Of a stretch of DNA of 64,000 nucleotides, positions 12,543-63,996 are shown in pieces (the first letter of the stretch is position 1; each line of letters starts with the position of its first letter). Under the pieces are notes generated by a model, which was given only the letters and a program-made list of their open reading frames with translations, ran no database searches and had not been told where the DNA came from. The DNA lies in the NCBI RefSeq assembly GCF_013030985.1, contig NZ_WPYP01000005.1, positions 1-64,000 of the forward strand, read 5' to 3'. Both the position numbers and the translations under genes were made by a program. The DNA comes from Ruegeria arenilitoris (lineage in GTDB: Bacteria; Pseudomonadota; Alphaproteobacteria; Rhodobacterales; Rhodobacteraceae).

Positions 12543-12553
12543 CTGATCCTTGG

Positions 12554-12583
12554 CGGGGCGGCTTTCAGTCGCCCCGTTTTTCT
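12554..12583 (+). terminator. Intrinsic terminator after the RTX-type gene
   Basis: A 7-bp GC stem (12554-12560 with 12570-12576) is followed by TTTTTCT. It sits between the secreted-protein gene and the secretion ABC gene and would let the substrate be expressed above the exporter. Confidence 0.65.
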
Positions 12584-12603
12584 AACCGGAAAGGGCCAAA
12601 GAC

Positions 12604-14334
12604 ATGTTCCAGAACGCCAATCCCGTCAAAACCGCCTGGGGGTCGCTGCGCAAAGGCTTTGTTGCGGTAGCGGTCTTCAGCCTGTTTCTGAACCTTCTGA
12701 TGCTGGCCGGGCCGCTATACATGCTGCAGGTCTATGACCGAGTGCTGACCAGCCAAAACCCTGACACCCTGATCGCCCTGTCGTTGCTGCTGGCTGGGGT
12801 TTTCGTCGTGATCGCCTGCCTCGACCTGATGCGGATGCGCATCCTTGGCCGTCTGGCCGCCCGGTTCGAACTGAGCGTCGGCGCACCTGTTCTTGGTGCT
12901 GCAATGCACCGTCGGGTACAGGGTGAAAGCAAGGCCGGTGAAAACCTGGTCGAGGATGTGAACGGGTTCCGCGAGTTCATCTCGGGCACGACCCTGACCG
13001 CTTTCTTCGATGCGCCGTGGATTCCCATTTACCTGTTGGTTCTGTATGTGCTGCACCCGTTTCTGGGCCTGCTCGGCCTGGCTGGGGCTGTTACCCTGAC
13101 CCTTATGGCGCTGATCAACAACGCCCGGGCTCGGGCGCCGATGCAGCTGGCATCGCAGGCGCGCGGTCGCTCGGACGCGCTGTTCAAAACCGGCGACAGA
13201 AACGCCGAGCTGGTTCACGCGCTGGGAATGAAAGACGATCTGGTGCGCCGCTGGACTGCCCTGCAGGCGGATGCGCATCAGCATAAGACCCGCGCTGCGG
13301 ATCGGATCGCCAGCTTTTCGGTGATGTCCAAAACCATCCGCATGGGCCTGCAGTCCGCGGCTCTGGGGTTGGGCGCGGCGCTGGCGATAACCGGAGAATC
13401 CACGGCGGGTGTGATGATCGCCGCCACCATCGTTCTGGCCCGCGCGCTGGCTCCGATTGATCAGTTGATCGGCCAGTGGCGCACATTTCTGGCCGCGCGC
13501 GGCTCGTACGGCAAGATCAGGCAACTGACCGAGGATTTCGCCGAGACACCGCCCAACCTGCACCTGCCGCGTGCGTTCAAATCTCTGGATGTCCGGATCG
13601 CGCAGGCGGCCCCTCCGCGCGCTATGAATGCGACCCTTCGTGGAATAGATTTCTGCCTGACAGCCGGGGATGTTCTGGCCGTGATTGGCCAGAGCGGGTC
13701 GGGCAAGACGACTCTGGGCAAGATGCTGGCCGGTATCTGGCATCCGCAACGGGGCGAGATCCTGCTGGATGGCAGCCCAATGTCGAAATGGAATGCCGAG
13801 GATCTGGGCAATCAGATCGGTTACCTGCCCCAGGACGTGGAATTGTTCGACGGCACCATTCGCGAAAACATCGGTCGCTTTTCAACTGCCATCGACGATG
13901 CCGAGGTACTGCGCGCCGCGCGTGATGCCGGGGTGCATGACCTGATCAGCTGCCTGACCGATGGGTACGAAACCCGGATCGGACAGGGGTTCTTTCTGTC
14001 CGGCGGCCAGCGTCAAAGGCTGGCTCTGGCCCGGGCCCTGTATGGCGATCCGTTTGTGCTGGTGCTGGACGAACCGAACTCGGATCTGGATGCCGAGGGT
14101 GAACAGGCCCTGCGCGATGCGTTGTTGGCCGTGCAGGAACGCGGTGCGATTGCGGTCGTCATGACCCATCGCCCGGCCACGTTGCAGGCCGCCAACAAGG
14201 TGCTGGTTCTGCGCAGTGGCAGCCAGACACAGTTTGGCAACAAACAGGACGTGTTGAAGGTGAACAGCCGCAACGTGCTGCAGACACCCCCGCGCCCGGC
14301 CAGCGAAACTCAGATCACAGGAGCGGCCCAATGA
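12604..14334 (+). CDS. Type I secretion ABC transporter, permease/ATPase (PrtD-like)
   Basis: This is a 576-residue fused transmembrane domain (about 15-310) and ATPase domain. Walker A is GQSGSGKTT (362-370), the signature is LSGGQRQRLALARAL, and Walker B is LVLDEPNSDLD. It has no C39 peptidase or peptidase-like N-terminal domain, so it belongs to the PrtD/AprD group that exports RTX proteins with uncleaved C-terminal signals. It follows the likely substrate gene by about 60 bases across a terminator. Its stop overlaps the adaptor start (ATGA). Confidence 0.93.
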   Translation: MFQNANPVKTAWGSLRKGFVAVAVFSLFLNLLMLAGPLYMLQVYDRVLTSQNPDTLIALSLLLAGVFVVIACLDLMRMRILGRLAARFELSVGAPVLGAAMHRRVQGESKAGENLVEDVNGFREFISGTTLTAFFDAPWIPIYLLVLYVLHPFLGLLGLAGAVTLTLMALINNARARAPMQLASQARGRSDALFKTGDRNAELVHALGMKDDLVRRWTALQADAHQHKTRAADRIASFSVMSKTIRMGLQSAALGLGAALAITGESTAGVMIAATIVLARALAPIDQLIGQWRTFLAARGSYGKIRQLTEDFAETPPNLHLPRAFKSLDVRIAQAAPPRAMNATLRGIDFCLTAGDVLAVIGQSGSGKTTLGKMLAGIWHPQRGEILLDGSPMSKWNAEDLGNQIGYLPQDVELFDGTIRENIGRFSTAIDDAEVLRAARDAGVHDLISCLTDGYETRIGQGFFLSGGQRQRLALARALYGDPFVLVLDEPNSDLDAEGEQALRDALLAVQERGAIAVVMTHRPATLQAANKVLVLRSGSQTQFGNKQDVLKVNSRNVLQTPPRPASETQITGAAQ

Positions 14335-50519: not shown

Positions 50520-51635
50520 ATGGAACAGACGAGCGATCTTGAGATTTTTCTGGTGGCCACCCCGGGCCTTGAGGCACCTTTGCACGCCGAAGCTGTCGAG
50601 AAGGGATTCGCAGGCGCCAAAATCGTACCCGGCGGGGTAAGCTGCCGCGGTGCCTGGCCCGAGGTCTGGCGCGCAAATCTGTGTATGCGCGGGGCCAACA
50701 AGGTTCTGGTCCGTTTGGGCAGTTTCCCTGCAGTTCACCTGGCGCAACTCGACAAGCGGGCGCGCAAGTTTCCCTGGTCCGATGTCCTGCGCCCCGATGT
50801 TCCGGTCAAGGTCGAGGCCACCAGCCGCAAGTCGCGTATCTACCACGCAGGCGCCGCCCGTCAGAGGATCGAGCAGGCGATCACCGGCACGTTGGGTGCT
50901 CCGATTTCGTCGGACGCGGGCCTGCGGGTTTTGCTGCGCATCGAAAAGGACATATGCACCTTGTCCGTCGATACCTCGGGCGAACCGCTGCACAAGCGCG
51001 GCCATAAGCCGGCCGTTGCCAAGGCGCCGATGCGCGAAACGATGGCGGCGATGTTCCTGCGTGAATGCGGATACGACGGGTCAGAGCCCGTTCTGGACCC
51101 GATGTGCGGTTCGGGGACATTTGTCATCGAAGCGGCCGAGATCGCTTTGGGCCTGAACCCAGGACGGTCGCGCCGTTTTGCCTTCGAAGACCTGCAGGGG
51201 TTCGATTCGAAAGCCTGGGCCGCAATGCAACAGAACGACCCACGGTCAGAAACGGACATGGTGTTTTATGGGTCGGACCGAAACACCGGCGCTGTGGACG
51301 CGGCCGCCACCAATGCCGACCGCGCCGGAGTTGCAGCACACACCCTATTTCAGTGCAAGTCGGTCAGTGACATCAAACCTCCGGCAGGTCCCGTGGGTCT
51401 GGTCATCGTGAACCCGCCCTATGGCGCCAGAATCGGGGACGAAAAGCGCCTGCGCTCTCTGTATGGCAGTCTGGGAAAAGTTCTGATGTCACGGTTCAGC
51501 GGTTGGCGTGCAGGTATCGTGACCAGCAACCAATCGCTTGCCCGCGCAACCCGCCTGCCTTTGCTGGCCCCGGGCCCCGTCGTGGATCATGGTGGCACGA
51601 AAATCCGGCTCTACCGAACCGATCCCCTGCCCTGA
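50520..51635 (+). CDS. THUMP-domain RNA methyltransferase (RlmL/YpsC-like)
   Basis: The 371-residue protein has an N-terminal ferredoxin-like and THUMP region (about 1-155) and an N6-adenine/guanine RNA methyltransferase domain (about 165-370). SAM motif I is LDPMCGSGTFVIEAAEIALG, and the catalytic motif is VIVNPPYGARIGDEKRL. It resembles the N-terminal half of RlmKL (23S rRNA m2G2445) without the RlmK part, as in many alphaproteobacteria. The exact target base is inferred only. Confidence 0.9.
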   Translation: MEQTSDLEIFLVATPGLEAPLHAEAVEKGFAGAKIVPGGVSCRGAWPEVWRANLCMRGANKVLVRLGSFPAVHLAQLDKRARKFPWSDVLRPDVPVKVEATSRKSRIYHAGAARQRIEQAITGTLGAPISSDAGLRVLLRIEKDICTLSVDTSGEPLHKRGHKPAVAKAPMRETMAAMFLRECGYDGSEPVLDPMCGSGTFVIEAAEIALGLNPGRSRRFAFEDLQGFDSKAWAAMQQNDPRSETDMVFYGSDRNTGAVDAAATNADRAGVAAHTLFQCKSVSDIKPPAGPVGLVIVNPPYGARIGDEKRLRSLYGSLGKVLMSRFSGWRAGIVTSNQSLARATRLPLLAPGPVVDHGGTKIRLYRTDPLP

Positions 51636-51734
51636 TGGGAAATCAGCGTCAATCGTCCTCCGGGAATTCCTGCAAAGGACTTCAGAATCCCTCTTGCACA
51701 TCCAAATCCGCGGGTATAGATCACCCGCCACGGT

Positions 51735-51811
51735 CGGAGTGTAGCTCAGCCTGGTAGAGCACTGTCTTCGGGAGGCAGGGGTCGGAGGTTCGAATCCTCT
51801 CACTCCGACCA
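51735..51811 (+). tRNA. tRNA-Pro (anticodon CGG)
   Basis: A complete 77-base cloverleaf with encoded CCA. The acceptor stem is CGGAGTG with CACTCCG, and the discriminator A is at 51808. The D arm is TAGCTCAGCCTGGTAGAGC. The anticodon stem is CTGTC/GGCAG with loop TTCGGGA, giving anticodon CGG. The T arm is GAGG-TTCGAAT-CCTC. A diverged copy of its 3' part lies at 56265-56320, so this gene probably served as an integration site. Confidence 0.95.
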
Positions 51812-51821
51812 ATAAAACAAG
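51765..51821 (+). repeat. Left direct repeat (tRNA-Pro 3' part plus flank), attachment-site-like
   Basis: These 57 bases, from the anticodon arm through CCA and on to ATAAAACAAG, recur at 56265-56320 in the same orientation with four substitutions and one missing base. Such duplications of a tRNA 3' end mark integration of mobile DNA at tRNA genes. Confidence 0.7.
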
Positions 51822-51850
51822 GCGCCAGCGGGCGCCTTTGTTGTTTTCAA
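51819..51850 (+). terminator. tRNA-Pro terminator
   Basis: An 8-bp stem AAGGCGCC/GGCGCCTT (51819-51826, 51831-51838) with an AGCG loop is followed by TGTTGTTTTC, 8 bases past the tRNA end. Confidence 0.75.
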
Positions 51851-52023
51851 GACAGTGATCCGAGGTTCGTTGAACCTGAGCACTAACCGAATGTCATCGC
51901 GCTGGCAGCTTTACGCAAAAGCTCCGGGCTAGAGCGATGCTGACAATGGGAAAATGCGGTGGGAAAAATCAAACAGCTGAGATGTTTAGCCATTTGGTAT
52001 CAACCCATTCTAACTCGGTCCAT

Positions 52024-52479
52024 CTATCCGGGCGGAAAAACGGCGGTTTTTTTCACTGTTCCATAGACAAAGCTGGTATCGATCGAAGCTATCCCACCGA
52101 TCGGATGAATTCTGTTTCGAATGAAGTCTTCATAAGCCTCGAGGTCCGATACCAAAACCCGCAACTGATAATCCATCGCCCCGGTCAGCACGTGGCATTC
52201 CAGAACTTCTTCAATCATCCGAACACGCTTTTCGAAGTTTTGAACGTCCGTTTCATTGTGCCGCTCTAACCGGATACGCACGAAGACGGTAATGGCCATC
52301 CCATACGCGGCAGCATCTACGTCGGCGCTGTATCCCTTTATAACTCCGTTGGCTTCAAGGTTTTTGACCCGGCGCAAACACGGTGACGGGGACAGGTTCA
52401 CTTCGTCGGCAAGATCCTGGTTCGTCATGCGCCCGTCCCGCTGCAGCGCTCGAATGATCTGCCTGTCCTTCGCGTCCAT
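52024..52479 (-). CDS. mdeR: Lrp/AsnC-family regulator (MdeR-like)
   Basis: This 151-residue protein has an AsnC-type helix-turn-helix (about 5-55, MDAKDRQIIRALQRDGRMTN then LADEVNLSPSPCLRRVKNLE) and a RAM ligand domain (CHVLTGAMDYQLRVLVSDLE). The ATG at 52479 follows a GAGGGTGA site. It is divergent from methionine gamma-lyase, exactly as mdeR is in Pseudomonas putida, where it activates mdeAB. The gene symbol rests on that arrangement. The divergent gap is 115 bases. Confidence 0.82.
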   Translation of the reverse strand: MDAKDRQIIRALQRDGRMTNQDLADEVNLSPSPCLRRVKNLEANGVIKGYSADVDAAAYGMAITVFVRIRLERHNETDVQNFEKRVRMIEEVLECHVLTGAMDYQLRVLVSDLEAYEDFIRNRIHPIGGIASIDTSFVYGTVKKTAVFPPG

Positions 52480-52594
52480 TTCACCCTCACCCTTAGCATA
52501 ATCTGCCAACTTTTGCCTTATCATTGGCATACTTTGCAATCATTAGCTCAAAGTTAAGGCGCAAACTAGCTCCAACATGATTCAGGAGCTTGTA

Positions 52595-53794
52595 ATGACT
52601 CGTCCAACCGGATTTGCCACCCGCGCCATTCACCACGCATATAACCCTCTGGAAAACGACGGCGCTCTGACACCACCGCTACATTTGACGTCCACGTTTA
52701 CCTTTGAAACCGCAGAGGCTGGTGGAGAGATGTTCGCCGGTGAGCGTGAAGGTCATATCTACAGCCGTATTTCAAACCCCACATGCGACCTTCTGGAACA
52801 ACGCATTGCCGTGCTTGAAGGCGCCGAGGCTGGGCTGGCACTCTCAAGCGGCATGGGGGCGATCACGGCCGTGCTTTGGACCCTGCTGTCGCCTGGTGAC
52901 GAAGTCATCGTGGACAAAACGCTCTATGGCTGCACCTTCGCATTCATGCGCCACGGTTTGGCGAAATGGGGGGTCACGATCACACATGTCGACATGACAG
53001 ACCCCGAGAACCTGAAAGCAGCAGTTTCTGACAAAACCCGCGTTGTCTATTTCGAAACTCCGGCCAATCCGAACATGCGCTTGGTGGACATCGCCGCGAG
53101 CGCCGAAATTGCGCACTCGGTCGGCGCAACGGTTGTCGTCGACAACACCTATGCCAGCCCGTATCTGACCCGCCCGATTGAACACGGGGCAGACATCGTG
53201 CTGCACTCTGCTACCAAATACCTCGGCGGGCATGGTGATGTGGTTGCCGGTCTGGTTGTCGGGTCCGCCGAACAGATTGCTGAGATCCGCCTTGTTGGGA
53301 TGAAGGACATGACCGGCGCGGTAATGGCCCCTTTCAACGCAATGCTGATCCTGCGCGGTCTGAAAACACTGAACCTGCGCCTGGATCGTCACTGTGCGTC
53401 CGCCAAGGTTGTCGCGGACTTCCTCGAAGCACATCCCGCCGTCGGCGAAGTTTACTTCCCCGGGCTTGAGAGTTTCGCCCAGCATGATGTCGCGCAGCGT
53501 CAGATGTCCCAACCCGGCGCCATGATAGCGTTTGAAATCAAGTCCGGCCTGTCCGGTGGGATTGAATTCATGAACCGCCTGAACATGATCCAGCGCGCGG
53601 TGTCCCTGGGCGATGCAGAGACACTGATCCAACACCCCGCATCCATGACCCATTCGACGTATACGCCGGAAGAGCGGGCCGAGCATGGGATCAGCGATGG
53701 CCTGATCCGTCTGTCCGTCGGGCTGGAGGATGTCGAAGACATCCTTGCAGACCTGGAGCAAGCTTTGCCCTACCCTGCCCGCAGCGCCGCCTGA
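52595..53794 (+). CDS. mdeA: Methionine gamma-lyase
   Basis: This 399-residue PLP enzyme of the Cys/Met metabolism family cleaves L-methionine to methanethiol, 2-oxobutyrate and ammonia. The PLP Lys is K208 in HSATKYLGGHGD. The position that distinguishes methionine gamma-lyase carries Cys (Y111-G112-C113, LYGCTFAF), whereas cystathionine lyases usually have another residue there. AGGAG precedes the ATG at 52595; an upstream ATG at 52577 is less well placed. The next gene encodes an E1 suited to the 2-oxobutyrate formed. Confidence 0.92.
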   Translation: MTRPTGFATRAIHHAYNPLENDGALTPPLHLTSTFTFETAEAGGEMFAGEREGHIYSRISNPTCDLLEQRIAVLEGAEAGLALSSGMGAITAVLWTLLSPGDEVIVDKTLYGCTFAFMRHGLAKWGVTITHVDMTDPENLKAAVSDKTRVVYFETPANPNMRLVDIAASAEIAHSVGATVVVDNTYASPYLTRPIEHGADIVLHSATKYLGGHGDVVAGLVVGSAEQIAEIRLVGMKDMTGAVMAPFNAMLILRGLKTLNLRLDRHCASAKVVADFLEAHPAVGEVYFPGLESFAQHDVAQRQMSQPGAMIAFEIKSGLSGGIEFMNRLNMIQRAVSLGDAETLIQHPASMTHSTYTPEERAEHGISDGLIRLSVGLEDVEDILADLEQALPYPARSAA

Positions 53795-53808
53795 ACCCGG
53801 AGACCGCC

Positions 53809-56181
53809 ATGCACATTGATCCCACCCAACTTAAGATCGTGGAGCAGCGCCTGCTCTGGTTGTCGCATTGGATGATTCACCATGCCAACCACGTCCGACC
53901 GAAGGTGGATGGGATCAAGATCGGCGGCCATCAGGCTTCGTCTGCTTCGATGGTATCGATCATGACCGCGCTCTATTTCTCGGCCTTGCGTCCAGAAGAC
54001 CGGGTTGCAGTCAAACCCCATGCCTCGCCAGTTTTTCACGCGATGCAGTATCTCATGGGCAATCAAACGCGCGAGAAGATGGAGAATTTTCGCGGGTTCG
54101 GGGGTGTGCAAAGTTATCCCAGCCGGACCAAGGATATCGACGATGTTGATTTCTCGACCGGGTCAGTGGGTCTGGGTGTCGCGATCACCTCGTTTGCCTC
54201 GATCATTCAGGATTACATCAAGGCCAAAAGCTGGGGCTCAGACGCCCCAATGGGACGTATGGTGGCCCTCGTTGGCGATGCCGAACTGGATGAAGGCAAC
54301 GTTTACGAGGCGTTGCAGGAAGGCTGGAAGAACGACCTGCGAAACACGTGGTGGATCATCGACTACAACCGGCAGTCATTGGATGGGATCGTCCGGGAAG
54401 GGCTGTTCGAACGGATCGAGAAAATCTTCGATGCGTTCGGTTGGGATGTCGTGCGTGTTAAGTATGGGGTTCTGCAACGCGCGGCCTTTGAAGAACCCGG
54501 CGGCAACCGCCTGCGTGACTGGATCGATGCGTGTCCAAACCAGGACTACTCCGCTTTGACTTTCATGGGTGGCGCGAACTGGCGTCAGCGACTCTTGGAC
54601 GATCTGGGGGATCAGGGAGAGGTGACCGCTCTGATCGAACGGCGCACGGACGCGGAACTTGCTGCCCTGATGGAAAACCTTGGCGGCAACTGCGTCGAGA
54701 CCATGGCCCAGACATTTGCAGCCATCGATCATGATCGCCCGACATGTTTTCTGGCCTACACCGTCAAAGGATGGGGCACCCCCATTGCCGGCCACAAGGA
54801 CAATCACGGCGGGCTGATGAACAATAGCCAGTTTGCCGCGTGGCAGTCGCATATGGGCGTGCCGGAAGGCGAAGAATGGGAGCCGCTTTTGACGGTACAA
54901 GACCCAGACGCGCTCAAGGATTTTCTGGCCAGCACCCCGTTCTTTGCCAAGGGTCCGCGCCGCTATTTTGATGACAAGCTGGATGTGCCGCCAATCGAGA
55001 TTGACACCAGTCGCGAGACCTCCACCCAGATGGCGTTTGGCAAGATCCTTGACGAGCTGTCAAAAGACGACAGCCCATTGGCCGAACGCATAATGACAAC
55101 CTCCCCAGATGTGACGGGCACGACAAGCCTCGGTCCTTGGGTGAACAGGCGCAAGCTATTTGCCCGATCCGAGCAAGCCGACGCCTTCATGGAACACCGG
55201 ATCCCTTCGACGGCGAAATGGGAATTCACGCCGGACGGGCAGCATATCGAGCTTGGTATCGCCGAAATGAACCTCATGCTGCTTCTGGGTGCCGCAGGGC
55301 TGTCGCATTCCCTGTTCGGCAAGCGGCTGATCCCGATTGGCACCGTCTATGATCCTTTTGTCAGCCGCGGCCTCGATGCGCTGAACTACGCCTGTTATCA
55401 GGACGCGCGCTTCATGCTGGTTGGCACACCATCGGGCGTCACCCTCGCACCCGAAGGTGGAGCACACCAATCCGTTGGAACACCGCTCATCGGGATGAGC
55501 CAAGACGGGCTGGCCGCTTTTGAACCCGCCTTTGCCGACGAGCTGGCGGTGATCATGGAGTGGGCCTTTGATTACATGCAGCGCGACGGCGAAGGGCAAC
55601 CGGACGAGCGCACCTGGCTGCGCGATGAAACCGGAGGGTCCGTCTATCTGCGCCTGACCACCAACCCGATTGAACAACCAGGCAAGCGCGTAGACGACGA
55701 ATTCCTAAAAGGTGCCATCGATGGGGCTTACTGGTTACGAAAACCAGGACCCAATTGCGAAGTTGTAATTGCCTATCAAGGAGCCGTCGCGCCAGAGGCA
55801 ATCAAGGCCGCCGGCATGATTGGCGAGGGCCGTCGCGATATCGGTGTTTTGGCCGTGACATCGGCAGATCGTCTGAATGCCGGATGGACCGCCGCCCAAC
55901 GAGCGCGTTCTCGCGGTAACCAGGCGGCACGCTCTCACATCGAAACTCTGATGTCCGACCTACCGCCCCACTGCAAGCTTGTCACCGTAATCGATGGTCA
56001 TCCTGCGACTCTTTCCTGGCTTGGCGCAGTGCTTGGACATCAGACCATACCCATGGGCGTCGAGCACTTTGGTCAGACCGGAACGATCGGTGATCTTTAT
56101 CGCCACCACTGCATTGACGCAGACGCTATCCTGGAGAAAGTGAATGGCCTGACTCATGGCAGGGCTCTTCACCGTGCATAG
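53809..56181 (+). CDS. mdeB: 2-oxoacid dehydrogenase E1, MdeB-like (2-oxobutyrate)
   Basis: The 790-residue protein is a homodimeric-type thiamine-diphosphate E1 related to AceE and transketolase. The ThDP-binding motif runs GDAELDEGNVYEALQEGW and then NTWWIIDYNRQSLDG. It is about 100 residues shorter than AceE. In P. putida the gene after mdeA encodes a 2-oxobutyrate-specific E1 (MdeB), and the order here is the same with a 14-base gap. It would feed propionyl-CoA formation using E2 and E3 subunits encoded elsewhere. No E2/E3 gene is in the window. Confidence 0.85.
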   Translation: MHIDPTQLKIVEQRLLWLSHWMIHHANHVRPKVDGIKIGGHQASSASMVSIMTALYFSALRPEDRVAVKPHASPVFHAMQYLMGNQTREKMENFRGFGGVQSYPSRTKDIDDVDFSTGSVGLGVAITSFASIIQDYIKAKSWGSDAPMGRMVALVGDAELDEGNVYEALQEGWKNDLRNTWWIIDYNRQSLDGIVREGLFERIEKIFDAFGWDVVRVKYGVLQRAAFEEPGGNRLRDWIDACPNQDYSALTFMGGANWRQRLLDDLGDQGEVTALIERRTDAELAALMENLGGNCVETMAQTFAAIDHDRPTCFLAYTVKGWGTPIAGHKDNHGGLMNNSQFAAWQSHMGVPEGEEWEPLLTVQDPDALKDFLASTPFFAKGPRRYFDDKLDVPPIEIDTSRETSTQMAFGKILDELSKDDSPLAERIMTTSPDVTGTTSLGPWVNRRKLFARSEQADAFMEHRIPSTAKWEFTPDGQHIELGIAEMNLMLLLGAAGLSHSLFGKRLIPIGTVYDPFVSRGLDALNYACYQDARFMLVGTPSGVTLAPEGGAHQSVGTPLIGMSQDGLAAFEPAFADELAVIMEWAFDYMQRDGEGQPDERTWLRDETGGSVYLRLTTNPIEQPGKRVDDEFLKGAIDGAYWLRKPGPNCEVVIAYQGAVAPEAIKAAGMIGEGRRDIGVLAVTSADRLNAGWTAAQRARSRGNQAARSHIETLMSDLPPHCKLVTVIDGHPATLSWLGAVLGHQTIPMGVEHFGQTGTIGDLYRHHCIDADAILEKVNGLTHGRALHRA

Positions 56182-56264
56182 ATGGGTTGGATTGGTTGGC
56201 AAATCACCTCAGAAAAAAACAGCGCTCCGTTGACTAAAAACAATATCTTGGCTGTCTTTACCAA

Positions 56265-56320
56265 TCTTCGGGAGGCAGGGTCGGAGGTTTGAAACCACTC
56301 ACTCCGATCAATAAAACAAG
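56265..56320 (+). repeat. Right direct repeat: diverged tRNA-Pro 3' fragment
   Basis: This matches 51765-51821 with one base deleted in the G-run and substitutions in the T loop, T stem and CCA (CCA reads TCA). The 5' half of a tRNA is absent, so it is not a functional gene. It probably marks the right boundary of the mde segment. The divergence suggests an old event. Confidence 0.72.
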
Positions 56321-56340
56321 TTGTCAAATGCAGAGGTATT

Positions 56341-56510
56341 TTCTGACTGACGGATGCGCAGATGTCGCGTCTTGAGCCCTTCTTCCCAAGGCCCCACGGC
56401 AAGCCTCGAGTTGATGATAGACGCGTTCGCAGCGGAATTACCTTCATCGATCGCAACGGTTTACGTTTGGCGTGATGTACCCAAGGAATACGGGCCGCAC
56501 AAGACGCTCG
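56341..56510 (+). pseudogene. IS5-family transposase remnant
   Basis: Translation gives LTDAQMSRLEPFFPRPHGKP then RVDDRRVRSGITFIDRNGLR, the N-terminal part of an IS5-group transposase. The Trp before LTDAQM is a stop (TGA at 56344-56346). One extra T at about 56467 shifts the frame, after which WRDVPKEYGPHKTL continues the same family text. No inverted repeats or C-terminal DDE region were found. It lies 20 bases outside the right tRNA repeat. Confidence 0.8.
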
Positions 56511-56760
56511 ATATGGGGTGCGAGCCGGCGCTGCTACAAGTTGCAGAGAACGTCGGCAGTGAACCCAGAGTGACAGATGCTGCATTAGCGAGGAATGGCA
56601 GCGGTACGTAAATGCGGACTCTGCAAAGTTGAACGAACGGCGCACACTGGACTTTGATCACACTCTGCCACGGCGGTGCAGAATTCTCTAAACCGGTCGG
56701 TGATCGAATTTGCAGCTGGTAGAAAACTGTTCACATTTTGACTGTCATCGCAGGCACCAG

Positions 56761-57540
56761 TCACTCGGTCAAAAGAGCCGAAAGCTCATTCGCCCCTTTT
56801 TGCAGTATGCCCAGAAACGACATCAGACTGTTGACGTCATGACGTTGTGTCGGTGCGTGAACCGAAAGCGTGCCCACCAATCGGCCTTGCCCATCCTGAA
56901 CGGGTACAGCCAGCGCAGTCATTCCGGTCATGAATTCCTCGTCATCGGTTGAATAACTATTCTCAGAGATACGTTGGATCTCCGCGCGCAATGCCTTGGG
57001 ATCAGTCAGCGAGCGTTCGGTTTGTGGCTGCAGATGTCCTGCCGAAAGAAAACCATCCAGCTTTTTCTGCCGTAGCGTGGACAGGTACATCTTGCCGCTG
57101 GCGGTGCAGTGGAAGGGCACTTGAGTCCCGACCGGGAGTTGAATTCGCAGAGGCCACTTGGTTTCCACCCGGTCGAGATAGATCATACCCTCGCGGTCTG
57201 GAATGGCGAGGTTACAAGTCTCACCGACAGTTTCAGCCACACTGCGCAAGATTGCCAGTCGCGCAGTGCGCAGGTGTTCGGATGACATGGTATTGACCGA
57301 AAGCCGTCGCAACCGGTGTCCTGGGCCATATGATCTGCCATCCAGATCTCGCTGCAGGAAACCTTCGGCTTCGGCGGTTTGCAGCAGACGGTGAATAGTT
57401 GGCTTGGCCAGACCCAATGCCTCGATCAGGTCCGATGGTTTGACGGAAACTCCCCGCCGCGCCACCTCCTCGAGGATCAGAAGAAGGCGCAAGTTGGTCG
57501 GGATATGAGTTTCTTTGTCTTGTGTTTCCGTCTCGGCCAT
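56761..57540 (-). CDS. IclR-family transcriptional regulator
   Basis: This 259-residue regulator has an N-terminal winged helix (about 12-75, PSDLIEALGLAKPTIHRLLQ) and an IclR effector domain (about 85-250, CNLAIPDREGMIYLDRVETK, PFHCTASGKMYLSTL). It is the last gene of the TRAP operon, 11 bases after dctM. The palindrome at 60906-60920 upstream of dctP is a candidate site. Effector unknown. Confidence 0.92.
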   Translation of the reverse strand: MAETETQDKETHIPTNLRLLLILEEVARRGVSVKPSDLIEALGLAKPTIHRLLQTAEAEGFLQRDLDGRSYGPGHRLRRLSVNTMSSEHLRTARLAILRSVAETVGETCNLAIPDREGMIYLDRVETKWPLRIQLPVGTQVPFHCTASGKMYLSTLRQKKLDGFLSAGHLQPQTERSLTDPKALRAEIQRISENSYSTDDEEFMTGMTALAVPVQDGQGRLVGTLSVHAPTQRHDVNSLMSFLGILQKGANELSALLTE

Positions 57541-57551
57541 CCTGCAACAGT

Positions 57552-58910
57552 CTAGTTATTTGGCAGCAGGATCAAGGCCAGATCGGGCACAAGTGACACT
57601 AAAATCCAAACCGACAGAAGCGCCACCAGATAGGGCACCGTATACCGAAGCAATCGGAAATAGGGTACGCCTGTCACTCCCGAGGCCACATAGAGGTTTA
57701 GCCCATAGGGCGGAGTGATGAACCCAATGGACGCCCCCACAAGGAAGATCACCGAGAAATGGATTGGATCAATCCCAACCGAGCCCGCAATTGGTGCAAG
57801 AATTGGGGCGAGAATTATGGTTACAGGCAGGCTTTCCAAAACCATTCCCGAGAAGAAAACGATAACCATCGAGGTGAACAATACCGCGTAGTACCCACCC
57901 ATCGAGGTGACGAAATCTCCGATGGTTTGCTGCGCGCCAAGCAATGACAGGATCTGCTGCATCACCACCGAAATTGCGATCAGCGGCGCAAGGATACCAG
58001 TGATCTGGGCCGAGCGGATCACGATCGAAGGGATCTCGGGGATGGTGAAGCCTTCAACCACAAACATCTCCGCGAAGGTTTTTTCTGTGGGCGGAATATC
58101 GTTTCGGGCCCCCATGATCCGGTTGATAGGATAGCTGACCAATCCGGCGATTACGCAGAAACCTACGGTCACGCCAGCGGCCTCGGTGGGTGAGAATTTG
58201 CCGGTATAGATGCCCCATAGAACCAGACCGATGGCAAAAAAGCCCAGCCACGCACCGAACGCGGTTTTCAGAACCCGGTTCAGTTGCAACGGGATAAGAT
58301 GGCCCCAGCCATTCATGCGGCAGATGATCCAGCAGGCGAATTGCATCCCCATGACCATCAGCGCACCGGGCAGAATACCCGCCACGAACAACTCGGAAAT
58401 AGGCAGGTTCATCAAAAACCCGTAAACGATGAAGATAATGGACGGCGGGATAATGATCCCTACGGTGCCTCCCGCTGCGGCGGTGGCCGCGCTGAACCGT
58501 TCGTCGTAACCGCCCTTGACCATCTCGGGGTGCAGCATCGAGCCAATGGTCGCGGTTGTTGCCGAGTTCGACCCGGAAATCGCCGCGAACAACCCACAGG
58601 CGCCCAGTGATGCCATGGCCAACCCTCCGCGTATCCAACCCAGACAGGAATAGGCGAAATCGCTGAGCCTCCGGGCGATGCCGGACTTGTTGATCAGGTC
58701 TCCGGTCAGGATGAACAGCGGCATCGCCAGCAGAGCAAAGCCCTTGTTGAACACGTTCAATAGCTCGGCGCCCATATTGTCCAGCGTCAGACCCAGGACG
58801 AAGGAACAGCCAATAACCCAATAGCCGATGACCAGAAGAACCGGCACGCCCAGCATGAACAGAAAGGTGACCCCAAGCGAGATCAATGTGACCATGGTTC
58901 CGTCTGTCAT
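57552..58910 (-). CDS. dctM: TRAP transporter large permease (DctM)
   Basis: The 452-residue membrane protein has about twelve helices, with the DctM text NKGFALLAMPLFILTGDLIN, AISGSNSATTATIGSMLHPE and FITPPYGLNLYVASGVTGVP. It couples substrate uptake to the Na+ gradient. Its start overlaps the small permease stop by one base. A Na+-pumping NADH dehydrogenase elsewhere in the window would help supply the gradient. Confidence 0.94.
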   Translation of the reverse strand: MTDGTMVTLISLGVTFLFMLGVPVLLVIGYWVIGCSFVLGLTLDNMGAELLNVFNKGFALLAMPLFILTGDLINKSGIARRLSDFAYSCLGWIRGGLAMASLGACGLFAAISGSNSATTATIGSMLHPEMVKGGYDERFSAATAAAGGTVGIIIPPSIIFIVYGFLMNLPISELFVAGILPGALMVMGMQFACWIICRMNGWGHLIPLQLNRVLKTAFGAWLGFFAIGLVLWGIYTGKFSPTEAAGVTVGFCVIAGLVSYPINRIMGARNDIPPTEKTFAEMFVVEGFTIPEIPSIVIRSAQITGILAPLIAISVVMQQILSLLGAQQTIGDFVTSMGGYYAVLFTSMVIVFFSGMVLESLPVTIILAPILAPIAGSVGIDPIHFSVIFLVGASIGFITPPYGLNLYVASGVTGVPYFRLLRYTVPYLVALLSVWILVSLVPDLALILLPNN

Positions 58911-59575
58911 CAGTCTGCTCCGATCACGGCCTGCTGGATCAGAGGCTCGCCAGTTTTCCAGTTGTGTAGATCATCGGCCAGGTTCTGAAACACGCGCCCG
59001 ACCATGAGGAAGAAGGACAGCGGCGCGGCCAGAAGGAACCACCACTGCATAATGTTGTCCGTGCCGAGTACGATCTGGAAATTGGACGCTGAGAGCGCCA
59101 CCAGTCGCGTGGTCGTCACGATGACGATCACCGCAAAGATGAACCAGAGTACAGCGTCGAGGATTAGACAAGCCAGTTGCCCGGCCCTCGGCATCGCGGA
59201 GCGAAACTCACTGAAGCTCAGGTGCGTACGCAGGCGGACATTGTAGGACGCCCCAAACCACGCCATCACCATGAACAACAGAGGGGGAATTGTGGTGGAC
59301 CACGGTTCTTGGTCGTTGAACACGAACCGATCGATCACGCCCCAAAAGATGATCAGGGCAATGGCAAGATAGGAATACACCATAACTGACCGTTCCAGGT
59401 GTCGTTCGACTAAGGGCACTGCCCGATAGATCAGCATGATCACAAACCCGCCAAGGGCCGAGACCACTGCCCCCAACGCCCAAGTGGCATCGGATTCCAG
59501 CGCGGATTGAATCTCGAACGAATCCTGGCTGAGAAAGGCGCTGAGTATCGCCCCTATATCTGCCCAAAAAGACAT
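58910..59575 (-). CDS. dctQ: TRAP transporter small permease (DctQ)
   Basis: The 221-residue protein has four core helices in the usual DctQ arrangement (VMAWFGASYNVRLRTHLSFS is the family's conserved loop) plus an N-terminal extension of about 30 residues. It lies between dctP (65-base gap with a hairpin) and dctM (1-base overlap). Confidence 0.9.
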   Translation of the reverse strand: MSFWADIGAILSAFLSQDSFEIQSALESDATWALGAVVSALGGFVIMLIYRAVPLVERHLERSVMVYSYLAIALIIFWGVIDRFVFNDQEPWSTTIPPLLFMVMAWFGASYNVRLRTHLSFSEFRSAMPRAGQLACLILDAVLWFIFAVIVIVTTTRLVALSASNFQIVLGTDNIMQWWFLLAAPLSFFLMVGRVFQNLADDLHNWKTGEPLIQQAVIGAD

Positions 59576-59604
59576 GTACCCGTCCTCCCAGTCGGTATTT
59601 GGTT

Positions 59605-59629
59605 GAACCGGCCCGCCTGGGGCCGGTTC
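59605..59629. terminator. Hairpin between dctP and dctQ
   Basis: A perfect 10-bp stem (59605-59614 with 59620-59629, 5-base loop) lies in the 65-base gap. No U-tract follows in the direction of transcription, so it is more likely an mRNA-stabilising or attenuating structure than a full terminator. It parallels the hairpin after the peptide-binding-protein gene. Confidence 0.55.
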
Positions 59630-59640
59630 GGTTCAGTTTA

Positions 59641-60879
59641 TCAGGCTTCGCCTCTCCACCAACGGCGCGGCTCAACGTTTTCCGGCAGTGTGTCAGCCGG
59701 AATCTCGCGCGCGATGTCGTAGATCTCCTGATATGTATCGATACCGCCGGACCACTTGTTCAGACGCTCGCGCCACTGCGCCCATGGCTCGGGGTTGTAA
59801 TTTGGAGCACACATCTCTTCGGCCAGCTTGATCTGGTCATCCGCCAGGAAGGCCGGGCGCACACCGTTTTCGGCAAAGATTGTGTTGGGCAGTTGCGGGT
59901 CCGAGAAGCCTACGGTGTTCAGCAGCGCAGCCTCGTTGGCACCTTGAATCAACGCCTGCGTAAAGTACGAGGATTCCATGACTGCATCCTGCAGCTCACC
60001 GCCCAGCCCGTCGAAAACCTTGGCGGACATTGAGGTGTGCTCGGTACCGCAGAAGAATTTCAGGTTCACCGACTGCGACACAACGGGCGACATGTTGGCG
60101 TAAGCCACGGCAGAGGCCCATGTTTCGGCGCCGTCGATCAGACCGGTCTTCAGCGCGTCCAGCGTTTCTTCCCACGCCACAGGAACGGGGTTCAGATTTA
60201 GAAGCTGCATGGCGATACGGCCCAGCTGCGTACCCGTTACCCGGTTCTTGGTGCCGAACAGCTCTTCCAGCTTGGTGACTGTCGGTTTATCCGAAAAGGT
60301 CGAGCCCATTTGCAGCCCGCGCAGTTCACAATGGGTGAACAGGAATTTCAGACCGTGCCGTTTTTCCAGCGGATCGCGCAAAATACGCTGGCTCGCCGGG
60401 CTGTAGAAGAAGTGGTACTGCGCAGCGCGACTGGGGAACATATAGGCGTAGTCCAATACGTTCAGATAGGGCGCACCACCAGCCGAGTTTTGAGTCGAGG
60501 CGGCATAGATGTCGACGATCCCCTGCTGGGTTTTCTCGACGCAGCTCAGCTGACCGCAGATCTGGTTGTCGCCGATGAACTCGATGCGAATCTCACCGTC
60601 CGTGCGCTCCTCCAAATCGCGCGCAAATTCGATCGCGCCCGCGCGTTCGATCAGCAGGTTGCGTGTATTGAAGCCTGATGCACCAAATTTCAGCGTGTGC
60701 TTCGGCTCTTTTGAAAAGCGCTTCTCGTATGTTGATTCGGCGGCCTGCGCGAGGTTCGCCAGGCTCATCGCGCCACCAAATCCCCCTGCCGCCAGCAGTG
60801 TCGAACTCATTCCATAGCGCCCGGCCACGCGGAAAAAATCCCGCCGCGAAATACCACTTAGTTTCCGACCGATCTCCAT
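59641..60879 (-). CDS. dctP: TRAP transporter substrate-binding protein (DctP)
   Basis: This 412-residue periplasmic protein has a twin-arginine signal (SRRDFFRVAGRYG) followed by a hydrophobic stretch and AQAAE. The mature domain has TRAP family text LIDGAETWASAVAYANMSPV and an invariant-type Arg region. Substrate is unknown. The divergent GMC oxidoreductase suggests an alcohol, polyol or aldehyde-yielding compound. It is the first gene of dctPQM-iclR. Confidence 0.92.
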   Translation of the reverse strand: MEIGRKLSGISRRDFFRVAGRYGMSSTLLAAGGFGGAMSLANLAQAAESTYEKRFSKEPKHTLKFGASGFNTRNLLIERAGAIEFARDLEERTDGEIRIEFIGDNQICGQLSCVEKTQQGIVDIYAASTQNSAGGAPYLNVLDYAYMFPSRAAQYHFFYSPASQRILRDPLEKRHGLKFLFTHCELRGLQMGSTFSDKPTVTKLEELFGTKNRVTGTQLGRIAMQLLNLNPVPVAWEETLDALKTGLIDGAETWASAVAYANMSPVVSQSVNLKFFCGTEHTSMSAKVFDGLGGELQDAVMESSYFTQALIQGANEAALLNTVGFSDPQLPNTIFAENGVRPAFLADDQIKLAEEMCAPNYNPEPWAQWRERLNKWSGGIDTYQEIYDIAREIPADTLPENVEPRRWWRGEA

Positions 60880-60905
60880 TGCTTACCTCCCTGTTCGCAA
60901 ATAAT

Positions 60906-60920
60906 GAGACATTTTGTATC
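60906..60920. promoter_or_regulatory. Palindromic operator candidate between dctP and GMC genes
   Basis: GAGACATTTTGTATC is an imperfect inverted repeat with one mismatched pair, 27 bases from the dctP start and 69 bases from the GMC start. A shared operator for the IclR regulator is a reasonable inference. Confidence 0.45.
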
Positions 60921-60988
60921 AAAAAAGGCTAGTATAAATCTTGCATCTTGCATAGAGTTTTTTTCAACGACGTTGTGAGGAGGCGGTC

Positions 60989-62584
60989 ATGGAAGTTGAT
61001 TATGCAGTTGTTGGCGCGGGGTCTTCGGGCTGTGTCATTGCCAATCGGCTGAGTGCCGACCCCAACACAACTGTTGCATTGCTCGAGGCAGGTGGTCGCG
61101 ATACCAACCCGTGGATTCACATCCCCGTCGGCTATTTCAAAACAATGCATAACCCTTCGGTTGACTGGTGCTATCGTACCGAACCTGATCCGGGGTTGAA
61201 CGGCCGGTCCATCGACTGGCCACGCGGCAAGGTTCTGGGCGGCTCATCCTCGCTGAACGGCCTGCTCTATGTCCGCGGGCAGAAAGAGGACTATGATCGC
61301 TGGCGGCAGATGGGCAATGAAGGTTGGGGATGGGACGATGTCTTGCCCCTGTTCAAACGCAGCGAAGATCAAGAACGCGGTGAAGATGAGTTTCACGGCG
61401 TTGGTGGGCCTTTGTCTGTGTCGAACATGCGCATTCAACGCCCCATCTGCGACGCTTGGGTTGCCGCGGCGCAGGCCGCAGGCTACCCGTTCAATCCCGA
61501 CTACAACGGCGCTGAACAAGAAGGCGTAGGTTATTTCCAATTGACCACCCGCAACGGTCGTCGCTGCAGCGCTGCTGTGGCCTATCTTAAACCCATCCGA
61601 AGTCGTTCGAATCTGAACATCATCACCAACGCATTGGTGACACGCGTGGTTTTGGACGGAAAAAAGGCGACCGGGCTGGTTTACCGGGACAGGTCGGGGG
61701 TCGAGCAAACTCTGAAAGTTCGGCGCGAGATTATTCTGTCTGGCGGCGCTATCAACTCTCCTCAGATTCTAATGCTGTCAGGAATCGGCGACCCTGACCA
61801 CCTGAAGGAAAACGGGATCGAACCGGTCCACGCCCTGCCTGGCGTCGGTAAGGGCTTGCAGGATCATTTGCAGGCGCGATTGGTGTTCAAGTGCAATGAA
61901 CCAACACTGAATGATGAAGTCCGCAGCCTGTTCAATCAGGCGCGGATCGCTCTGAAATACGCTCTGTTCCGTGCCGGGCCTATGACCATGGCGGCCAGCC
62001 TTGCCACCGGCTTTATGAAAACACGCCCGGATGTAGAGACACCCGACATACAGTTTCACGTCCAACCCTGGTCCGCTGACAGCCCGGGCGAGGGCGTACA
62101 TCCGTTCTCGGCCTTCACAATGTCGGTCTGTCAGCTGCGCCCGGAAAGCAGGGGAGAATTGCGCTTGAACGGCCCGGACCCGTCCAAACATGTCAAGATC
62201 ATCCCGAACTACCTATCCACGGATACGGATTGCAGGACCATCGTCGGCGGAGTGAATATCGCGCGCAGGATTGCCAAACAGAACCCTCTGGCCTCGAAGA
62301 TATCGGAAGAGTTTCGACCGACGGCAGATCTGAGTCACGACGATTATGAAGGCACACTTGATTGGGCCAGATCCAACACCACGTCGATCTATCACCCAAC
62401 CGGCACTTGCGCGATGGGAAGCGATGACATGTCTGTTGTTGATGCAAAACTAAATGTACATGGAATAATGAACCTACGGGTAGCTGATTGCTCGATTATG
62501 CCGGAAATCGTCAGCGGCAACACTAATGCGCCAGCAATTATGATAGGTGAAAAGGCAAGCGACTTGATAAATGCAGATGGCTAA
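60989..62584 (+). CDS. GMC-family FAD oxidoreductase (choline dehydrogenase-like)
   Basis: The 531-residue flavoprotein has an FAD motif VVGAGSSGCVIANRLS at the N-terminus, GMC signature 1 in GKVLGGSSSLNGLLYVRGQ, signature 2 in LSGGAINSPQILMLSGIGD, and the catalytic His and Asn in YHPTGTCAMG and SGNTNAPAIM. It oxidises an alcohol with FAD; choline, other alcohols and polyols are family substrates. No betaine aldehyde dehydrogenase is adjacent, so betA is not assigned. It is divergent from the TRAP operon, which probably imports its substrate. The last ~40 codons are more AT-rich than the rest. Confidence 0.92.
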   Translation: MEVDYAVVGAGSSGCVIANRLSADPNTTVALLEAGGRDTNPWIHIPVGYFKTMHNPSVDWCYRTEPDPGLNGRSIDWPRGKVLGGSSSLNGLLYVRGQKEDYDRWRQMGNEGWGWDDVLPLFKRSEDQERGEDEFHGVGGPLSVSNMRIQRPICDAWVAAAQAAGYPFNPDYNGAEQEGVGYFQLTTRNGRRCSAAVAYLKPIRSRSNLNIITNALVTRVVLDGKKATGLVYRDRSGVEQTLKVRREIILSGGAINSPQILMLSGIGDPDHLKENGIEPVHALPGVGKGLQDHLQARLVFKCNEPTLNDEVRSLFNQARIALKYALFRAGPMTMAASLATGFMKTRPDVETPDIQFHVQPWSADSPGEGVHPFSAFTMSVCQLRPESRGELRLNGPDPSKHVKIIPNYLSTDTDCRTIVGGVNIARRIAKQNPLASKISEEFRPTADLSHDDYEGTLDWARSNTTSIYHPTGTCAMGSDDMSVVDAKLNVHGIMNLRVADCSIMPEIVSGNTNAPAIMIGEKASDLINADG

Positions 62585-63036: not shown

Positions 63037-63996
63037 TTAGTTGCTCGCTTCATCTACCCCAACTACATCAGGTCTGGCTTTCACCCCTTCCAACATTTTT
63101 ACCACTTCGGCTTTCCAACCCGCTTTGATTTTCAAAGCCAATTGAGACGGTGGTCGGTGGTCAGGTTCAAGGATCGCGTATTCATATCTGAGCGGTTTTT
63201 CGAAAGGTAAAAACGCGATCTTTCCGTTGGAGAGGTTTAGCTCTCGTTCAGTCGCGACGGTTAACGGATCCACGATCGAATAACACTGACCTGAGCTCAC
63301 AAAGGGTATCAAAGGCAGAAAATACTGACAGGTCACCGTTGGATTGTAGTTGGCAGATGCATCCTGAAACTCTTGTCGAATTTTGCTTTGGAACGGATGC
63401 GCATCATGCAATCCCCCCATCGGGACCCCGTCAAGATCGGAAATGGATACGATCTTGCGGGAGTTAAGTGGGCTGTCACGATCGATGGCACAAAAACAAT
63501 CTGCCCGGATCAGTTCGGCGGAATATTGTGGCTCTTTCCCAGCTGATTGTTCAAAATCCGCAAATCCGAAATCTATGTTCTGCGTCCCGGCAAGCTCCAT
63601 GATCTGAGGCGAGCTGCGCGTTGACAGTGTGATGCGTATCTCGGGGTTTTCACCGACTGACTGGCTTATGAAGCGAGGGAACAAGAAGGCGGACGGGCCC
63701 GGCATTGTAGCGACGTTTAGGCTGCCGGAATGCCCCTTGATCAGCCCCTCCATTGTGCTGGAAATCGTCGCAAGGCGGTCCAGAATACCTGTGGTTTCAG
63801 CCAAAAGGTAATGGGCCTCGGGAACAGGCACCAATCGCCGCCCTTTTCGCTCGAACAGTGTCAGGCCAAGGCTCTTTTCGAGGTTCTTCAAGGCCAGGCT
63901 GATCGCGGGCTGGGTCCGGTTCAGTTTTTTTGCGGTTTGAGAGATAGAGCCGGTCTCCATCACCTCGCGAAAAACGGTGAGCTGCGTAAGGTTCAT
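63037..63996 (-). CDS. LysR-family transcriptional regulator
   Basis: The 319-residue protein appears complete, starting MNLTQLTVFREVMETGSISQ at 63996, just inside the window edge. It has the standard winged helix (TAKKLNRTQPAISLALKNLE) and an effector domain (about 92-300). The target is unknown: the gene it may regulate divergently would lie right of the window. It converges on the GMC gene across 452 bases. Confidence 0.88.
   Translation of the reverse strand: MNLTQLTVFREVMETGSISQTAKKLNRTQPAISLALKNLEKSLGLTLFERKGRRLVPVPEAHYLLAETTGILDRLATISSTMEGLIKGHSGSLNVATMPGPSAFLFPRFISQSVGENPEIRITLSTRSSPQIMELAGTQNIDFGFADFEQSAGKEPQYSAELIRADCFCAIDRDSPLNSRKIVSISDLDGVPMGGLHDAHPFQSKIRQEFQDASANYNPTVTCQYFLPLIPFVSSGQCYSIVDPLTVATERELNLSNGKIAFLPFEKPLRYEYAILEPDHRPPSQLALKIKAGWKAEVVKMLEGVKARPDVVGVDEASN

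Follow-up and report, generated by a model that had tools for sequence, protein, structure and literature searches.

A putative relic of a tRNA-Pro integrative element holds the mdeRAB methionine-catabolism genes of Ruegeria arenilitoris

How did a short cluster of methionine-catabolism genes come to lie between a tRNA gene and a partial copy of the same gene? We addressed this question in a 64,000-nt stretch of Ruegeria arenilitoris DNA (GCF_013030985.1, contig NZ_WPYP01000005.1, positions 1 to 64,000; hereafter the window), in which the initial annotation had read the cluster as cargo acquired at the tRNA. The analysis indicates that the region 51812-56320 is very probably the immobile relic of a Ruegeria tyrosine-recombinase integrative element with the anticodon-loop/3′ half of tRNA-Pro(CGG) as its insertion site.

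Results

mdeRAB lies between tRNA-Pro(CGG) and a worn copy of its 3′ end

ARAGORN detected a single tRNA in the window, an intact tRNA-Pro(CGG) on the forward strand at 51735-51811, which represents the integration target, and Rfam matched a tRNA at 51735-51808. Rfam returned nothing besides this tRNA in 51400-57600, and therefore no known riboswitch family is found there. The segment 51765-51821, from the anticodon loop to 10 nt beyond the gene, is copied directly at 56265-56320 on the forward strand, so that a degenerate copy of the attachment site, formed by the tRNA 3′ end, marks the far border. Alignment of the two segments gave 52 identical columns out of 57, confirming the repeat of 57 bases with four substitutions and one deletion described at the outset, and the BLAST E-value of 4e-16 (searched against 40 relative loci and the window) means that the match is not due to chance. 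Functionless partial tRNA copies occur in bacteria, which would speak for a fortuitous or ancestral duplication of the tRNA fragment. However, an extra tRNA-Pro 3′-half copy is present in 20 of the 54 Ruegeria genomes including the window's own (the copy of G019 being weaker, 86%), the starts of these copies cluster at tRNA positions 21-32, and five of them have mdeB less than 200 nt away. As the shared element ends described below refute such a duplication in the main, its probability is practically nil.

The tRNA gene is followed by a terminator-like hairpin and T-run at 51812-51850 (forward strand), identified by alignment and in the sequence listing. This structure probably came with the element, because the relatives bearing the element ends share it, whereas it does not follow the tRNA in seven relatives whose site looks empty.

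Three genes lie between the repeats in the divergent mdeR-mdeAB order, as first annotated, and this assignment was borne out by profile matches. The mdeR gene (52024-52479, reverse strand) encodes an Lrp/AsnC-family regulator (Pfam AsnC_trans_reg and HTH) and is divergent from mdeA (52595-53794, forward strand), which encodes a methionine gamma-lyase. The mdeA product exceeds the cut-offs of the methionine gamma-lyase equivalog models NCBIfam NF005695 and TIGR01328 (747.7 and 627.5 bits against 666 and 549.7), scores 577 bits against PDB 1gc0_A and has in common with it the LYGC stretch, whose Cys we take to be a mark of the methionine gamma-lyase family. Directly downstream, mdeB (53809-56181, forward strand) encodes a transketolase/E1-like protein, a thiamine-diphosphate E1-like 2-oxo acid dehydrogenase (Pfam Transketolase_N and PDH_E1_M; 117 bits against the PDB E1 1l8a_A), which reaches 175 bits against aceE, far below the cut-off of 859.9. 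The likely starts of mdeR (52479) and mdeA (52595) were judged from the annotated gene lengths in Ruegeria AD91A. Proteins of the MdeA family convert methionine to methanethiol, ammonia and 2-oxobutyrate, those of the MdeB family convert 2-oxobutyrate to propionyl-CoA, and those of the MdeR family sense an amino acid and control the divergent promoter. The three genes of the window thus look fit for methionine breakdown, a role predicted from the family matches. The G+C content of the module (0.569) lies between those of its flanks (0.591 and 0.552) and is therefore uninformative.

Both ends of an integrative element and an integrase fossil are retained

The sequence at 51851-51936 corresponds to the left end of an integrative element. 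Over 86 nt, it is 79% identical to the left end, with its integrase, in the relative G005 (E 6.8e-15); matches to this end were also found in G008, G034, G010, G004, G023 and G020. It includes, on the reverse strand at 51883-51936, the 3′ end of an integrase gene comprising the last ~17 codons and the stop codon, which matches the G005 tyrosine integrase at residues 312-327 (12 of 16 identical). The left end with this fossil is located at the same distance from the tRNA as in G005. As a protein match, the fossil is the top hit in the 64-kb window yet weak by itself (E 7.6, or 0.020 when searched in an 8-kb stretch), and its score at its place was matched by none of 100000 shuffles. The loss of the integrase, which had been proposed, has accordingly left a trace. 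Since the window has only this 3′ fossil in place of an intact tyrosine integrase gene beside the tRNA, and a search of its genome with the G005 integrase at E 1e-30 found nothing, the locus is classed as a decayed relic and not a working element. The module that the window shares with G003, G006 and G008 begins at 51929/51930, at the end of the fossil.

On the other side, the right end of the element (56196-56264) is shorter than in relatives and 79.6-89.7% identical over 39-58 nt to the right ends of G038, G034, G008, G048 and G006. Beyond the tRNA copy, 56321-56342 is a remnant of the native flank that directly follows tRNA-Pro in G003, G013, G016, G017, G019, G040 and G045. The empty site anticipated by the initial annotation was thereby found in these seven relatives, with an overlap of only ~22 nt with the sequence right of 56320. 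Past these ~22 nt, the native flank in the window is interrupted by an IS4/5-type transposase fragment (56347-56472, forward strand), which matches Pfam DUF4096 (E 9.6e-7; 29.4 bits, under the cut-off of 34.3) and is 69% identical over 169 nt to an IS-like ORF of G010.

The left-end and integrase fossils also bear on the proposal that a 4.4-kb, purely metabolic cargo was the acquired unit: they point to an interval that is the leftover of an internal deletion and not a compact element. A cargo-only unit, consisting of mdeRAB and element ends and mobilised by an integrase in trans, would be in keeping with seven of the eight genomes with this left end at the tRNA site (the exception being G005), which keep the ends yet lack the cognate integrase or have it in broken form, and with G048, which retains the two ends only. 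The integrase fossil, however, implies that the copy in the window descends from a form with an integrase, no other copy of the 4.4-kb interval was found, the distal tRNA copy is degenerate, and the window's genome is devoid of a G005 integrase match at the above threshold, all of which make such a unit very unlikely.

Relatives carry fuller intervals at the same tRNA

In G006, G008, G015 and G038, mdeRAB abuts the distal tRNA copy in intervals of 12 to 50 kb, and mdeB is 83-196 nt from the attachment copy in these four genomes and in the window's own (G000). The right end of G015 differs from that of the window, and the left ends of G006 and G038 are of another type. In Ruegeria AD91A (G034), the same ends surround a different cargo, and LysR-WrbA-EamA and a truncated integrase are located next to the tRNA; in G048, the left and right ends adjoin each other directly. 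The only intact cognate integrase among the 54 genomes adjoins the tRNA in G005, where mdeRAB lies 387 kb away and the contig ends ~5.5 kb beyond the integrase. An element combining mdeRAB with an intact cognate integrase was found in none of the genomes analysed.

We also considered a tRNA-borne origin for the mde loci of G005, G010, G012, G013, G034, G035, G042, G049, G051 and G053, which is unsupported as these loci have neither a tRNA nor an attachment copy beside mdeB. Among 59 loci scanned, three Aliiroseovarius loci have an oppositely oriented tRNA-Pro(CGG) ~5 kb away from mdeB.

mdeRAB is patchily distributed and has moved between species

At ≥78% identity, mdeB is present in 27 of the 54 genus genomes including the window's own. 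It is located on the tRNA contig in 13 carriers, within 50 kb of the tRNA in seven of them and more than 60 kb away in six, and on a different contig in the other 14. The occurrence of mdeRAB at one place in all relatives with no empty site, which would have spoken against an insertion, was therefore not observed. This distribution also bears on an ancestral neighbourhood, in which proximity to an RlmL-like gene is the original state of mdeRAB and the tRNA copy is a mere coincidence. In R. pomeroyi DSS-3, mdeB is followed after 1.1 kb by an RNA methyltransferase gene, and in three further genomes (loci L160, L173 and L176) it is followed after 0.6-1.1 kb by an RlmL-like gene (66-67%). In those loci, however, mdeRAB is upstream of the RlmL-like gene and ARAGORN finds no tRNA in L160, L173 or L176; given also the scattered positions of mdeB in the genus and the element ends flanking the genes in the window, we regard this arrangement as exceedingly improbable. 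The mdeB gene is present in 137 plasmid records as well, but conjugative carriage of mdeRAB was not adopted since nothing ties the plasmids to this site.

Comparison of the mde and host phylogenies, suggested by the initial annotation, showed that the host clade G000+G003+G006 is incompatible with the mde tree (p-AU 1.3e-8); this clade has moderate support (86) in core-gene trees of two genes (gyrB and parE) from 17 genomes. In nine of the ten pairs among G005, G006, G008, G015 and G038, mde fourfold-site divergence is <0.6 of core divergence; no pair including G000 fell below this threshold, which would mark mde as clearly younger than the core genes. The patchy distribution, the rejected host clade and the fourfold divergence together indicate transfer between species.

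In the nearest relative, G003, mdeRAB is found 32 kb beyond the tRNA, adjacent to a gene with a homologue at 63037-63996 in the window, and the fourfold-site divergence between G000 and G003 is alike for mde (0.20-0.23) and core genes (0.22-0.25), so relocation within the lineage is possible. mdeRAB may have been present in the ancestor of G000 and G003 and reached its present site by recombining into a tRNA-Pro element already in place, instead of being acquired here from outside; the mde tree joins the two genomes, with support of only 49/24. On the other hand, the mdeB-right end-copy order shared by G006, G008 and G038 is hard to reach via independent moves, and the order of mde beside the 63037 homologue is not seen in G005 or G006. 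We consider such a relocation somewhat unlikely. The insertion of an element at this tRNA, as initially claimed, is supported by both ends and the repeat, whereas mdeRAB may have first entered the lineage either here or elsewhere, given the mdeRAB of G003, which is 32 kb from the tRNA and shows core-like divergence.

Discussion

We interpret the locus as an insertion relic because the repeat, both ends, the integrase fossil, the intervals of relatives, the native flank and the mde tree agree, although the fossil is short, the native-flank match spans ~22 nt and the ends of G015, G006 and G038 differ. We infer the order of events and the identity of the deleted DNA as follows. On insertion, the tRNA would have been restored in full at the left end and the native flank pushed behind a second 3′-half copy at the right end, with mdeRAB as the cargo adjoining the right end. 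A later internal deletion, from within the integrase gene to ~90 bp past the end of mdeR, would have taken the integrase together with a LysR / FMN-reductase / EamA module, the latter being suggested by the gene content of relatives. The right end would then have become shorter, the distal tRNA copy would have decayed, and an IS4/5-type insertion would have cut the native flank.

The locus provides a worked example of how deletion can produce a tiny 'metabolic insertion', which is then a relic and not a minimal mobile element. The fossils identify the methionine pathway as cargo that a tRNA-Pro element carries among Ruegeria species, and travel of this cargo would help explain its presence in only half of the genus genomes searched. 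Methionine-derived methanethiol contributes to organosulfur in the sea. In R. pomeroyi, megL is raised strongly under H2O2 (PMC9769926). A broader and quite improbable reading is that tRNA-Pro(CGG), located on the large second replicon in Ruegeria, serves as a hot spot of tandem integration, where elements that lack their own integrase but keep both ends form a cassette pool still exchangeable between species via integrases in trans. If this were true, the pool would include the methionine-to-methanethiol pathway. In the open-access literature, neither an integrative element with mdeRAB nor a Ruegeria tRNA-Pro element turned up as the subject of a paper, which is weak evidence of absence.

The mdeR-mdeA-mdeB cluster of Pseudomonas putida has the same order of a divergent Lrp-type regulator, a methionine gamma-lyase and an E1-like protein, and the megL cluster of R. 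pomeroyi DSS-3 (SPO_RS21425-21435) likewise shares its gene order and divergent regulator with the window. The window cluster differs from both in genomic position, and the activity of its MdeB, so far under the aceE cut-off, is predicted from sequence. Among tRNA islands with a tyrosine integrase, those of Ruegeria conchae M340 and AD91A are located at this same tRNA, and R. conchae has a different integrase, 27% identical to that of G005. The locus resembles the known islands in insertion at the tRNA 3′ half, an intact tRNA at the integrase end, a direct repeat at the far end, an integrase gene facing the tRNA and variable cargo. In contrast to them, its integrase is a ~17-codon fossil, its interval is 4.5 kb, and its distal copy and flank are degenerate. 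The locus is a decayed tRNA-associated genomic island of a kind already known. Since some relatives have more complete versions at this tRNA, it is a clear, if ordinary, example of a mobile gene island.

Structure of the mdeRAB interval at tRNA-Pro

Directly 3′ of tRNA-Pro(CGG) (51735-51811), a terminator-like hairpin and about 90 nt are followed by mdeR on the minus strand, mdeA, mdeB, 83 nt and a 56 nt direct copy (56265-56320) that comprises the tRNA 3′ half and adjoining flank. The initial annotation had described this copy as carrying four substitutions and one deletion, which we confirmed. The integration footprint is real and well supported, and the interval is very probably what remains of an integrative element at tRNA-Pro. 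The locus was compared among 54 Ruegeria genomes including the window's own (G000). Contigs of this set match in length the records of R. arenilitoris HKCCD9148 (G003, the nearest relative), HKCCD6430 (G006) and HKCCD8929-2 (G005), R. atlantica HKCCD9150 (G008), R. denitrificans CECT 5091 (G015) and Ruegeria sp. HKCCD7303 (G038).

The left end (51851-51936, 86 nt), searched against a database covering this site in 42 of the 54 genomes, matched the sequence after tRNA-Pro in G005 at 79% (E 6.8e-15). The G005 counterpart is the 3′ end of an intact tyrosine recombinase gene (327 or 328 residues; Phage_integrase, 81.8 bits) pointing toward the tRNA. Matches at the same place were found in G008 (85% over 66 nt), G034 (strain AD91A, 74%), G023 (74% over 61 nt), G004 (69%), G020 (66%) and G010 (36 nt only). 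The window integrase frame reads RSSPELLRKAASAMTF and its G005 equivalent RYSPEHLRKAASALEF; at this fixed place, their score was reached by none of 100000 shuffles, while in a free protein search the fossil ranked first but weakly (E 7.6 over the full 64 kb, E 0.020 over an 8-kb region). As only remnants persist in G008 (11 residues), G004 (16 residues), G034 (last 116-121) and G020 (a broken copy), one genome among the eight sharing this left end, G005, has an intact integrase. The window retains just the 3′ fossil, in agreement with the proposed loss of its integrase. Homology of the window module to G003, G006 and G008 has sharp edges at 51929/51930 and 56192/56195, and the left edge is a deletion junction since it coincides with the end of the fossil.

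The 69 nt preceding the window copy are 79.6-89.7% identical over 39-58 nt to the sequences that immediately precede the distal copy of G038, G034, G008, G048 and G006. About 150 nt between mdeB and this right end in G008, G006 and G038 are absent from the window, and the right end of G015 is a different one. In G048, both ends are joined copy to copy with zero cargo; this arms-only remnant (locus L109, about 12526-12797) retains a pair of attachment copies spaced about 185 bp from each other, and its cargo was possibly deleted via a repeat common to both ends.

Empty sites and larger elements in relatives

An empty site, in which tRNA-Pro is joined directly to the sequence right of 56320, had been predicted for relatives. 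Seven genomes (G003, G013, G016, G017, G019, G040 and G045) have a conserved stretch of 109-240 nt directly after tRNA-Pro (pairwise match lengths with the tRNA half counted in; G013 and G016 weaker), and its first ~22 nt follow 56320 in the window before a transposase fragment, bearing out the prediction over this overlap. In G006 and G032, the same stretch is found behind the distal copy.

Of the 54 genomes, 20 (own included; G019 weaker) carry one or more additional copies of the tRNA 3′ half, and mdeB lies 83-196 nt from an attachment copy in five (G000, G006, G008, G015 and G038). The tRNA-to-copy interval spans 12.4 kb in G006, 14.6 kb in G008, 31.6 kb in G015, where it encloses a second copy and an integrase gene, and 49.8 kb in G038, where an integrase of another type adjoins the tRNA. 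The small size of the footprint, initially regarded as unusual, is put down to decay. In G006, G008, G015, G038 and G046, the stretch from the tRNA to mdeRAB contains LysR and EamA genes, with an FMN reductase between these two in G008. AD91A carries LysR, a WrbA-type quinone oxidoreductase, EamA and a truncated integrase, and has nucleotidyltransferase, AAA ATPase and exonuclease genes at the expected place of mdeRAB. G046 has no attachment copy despite its LysR and EamA genes: in locus L064 (3297-10356), tRNA-Pro is followed directly by LysR, EamA and mdeRAB, and a distal copy was not found there. Tandem or nested elements occupy the same tRNA in G038 (L059-L061, with element-end-like sequence also past the distal copy), G034 (L090) and G015 (L057-L058, two copies with the integrase gene in between).

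Transfer of the mde genes

mdeB is found at ≥78% identity in 27 of the 54 genomes (G007 partial). At fourfold-degenerate sites, with gyrB+parE as the core, the mde/core divergence ratio was under the cut-off of 0.6 in 9 of 10 pairs among G005, G006, G008, G015 and G038 and also for G012-G013; no pair containing G000 fell under it. The mde tree of 17 genomes united the former five at support 100. In the core tree, G006 joined G000 and G003 (support 86), a clade that is rejected by the mde data (lnL difference 120.4, p-AU 1.3e-8). Judged by these sequence comparisons, transfer of the mde genes among species is demonstrated. For the G000-G003 pair, divergence is alike in mde (0.20/0.23) and core (0.25/0.22/0.23). 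Because of this likeness, and because mdeRAB of G003 lies 32 kb from the tRNA, adjoining a homologue of the window gene at 63037-63996, the data for the window's lineage fit either fresh acquisition of mdeRAB at the tRNA or its later relocation in G000 or G003.

The neighboring block at 56761-62584 is made up of an IclR gene, three genes for a TRAP transporter and one for a GMC oxidoreductase; G003 also has it, placed between the tRNA and mdeRAB and with its order reversed with respect to the latter. This block seems to be mobile too, since IclR of the distant G016 is 97% identical to that of the window. In the closed genomes of AD91A, THAF33 and R. conchae M340, the tRNA-Pro site (window 50520-51811) is on a plasmid-recorded replicon of 743 to 811 kb, which makes it probable that the window contig belongs to a chromid; AD91A and THAF33 carry mdeRAB on the same replicon. 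In a Rhodobacteraceae MAG (L186), tRNA-Val (12528-12603) starts ~180 bp past mdeB. Beyond it is a stretch resembling an integrase (28% to that of G005), a hint that mde cargo may reside at another tRNA. In Aliiroseovarius (L136, L140 and L141), tRNA-Pro(CGG) lies ~5 kb from mdeB in the opposite orientation.

Cargo function and known mde systems

MdeA scores above the cut-off in two methionine gamma-lyase equivalog models and aligns with PDB 1gc0_A over 388 residues, and MdeB is E1/transketolase-like but far under the aceE model cut-off. The mdeR-mdeAB genes of P. putida have reportedly been the subject of prior work. The same three-gene cluster is present on the R. pomeroyi megaplasmid (SPO_RS21425-21435; megL is 21430). 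R. pomeroyi megL is strongly upregulated on H2O2 (PMC9769926), MegL of R. pomeroyi and R. lacuscaerulensis is said to be capable of methanethiol production (stated there as data not shown; PMC7157515), and in Pseudomonas donghuensis tomato exudate induces 'aceE/mdeB, mdeA' for methionine catabolism (PMC10256816).
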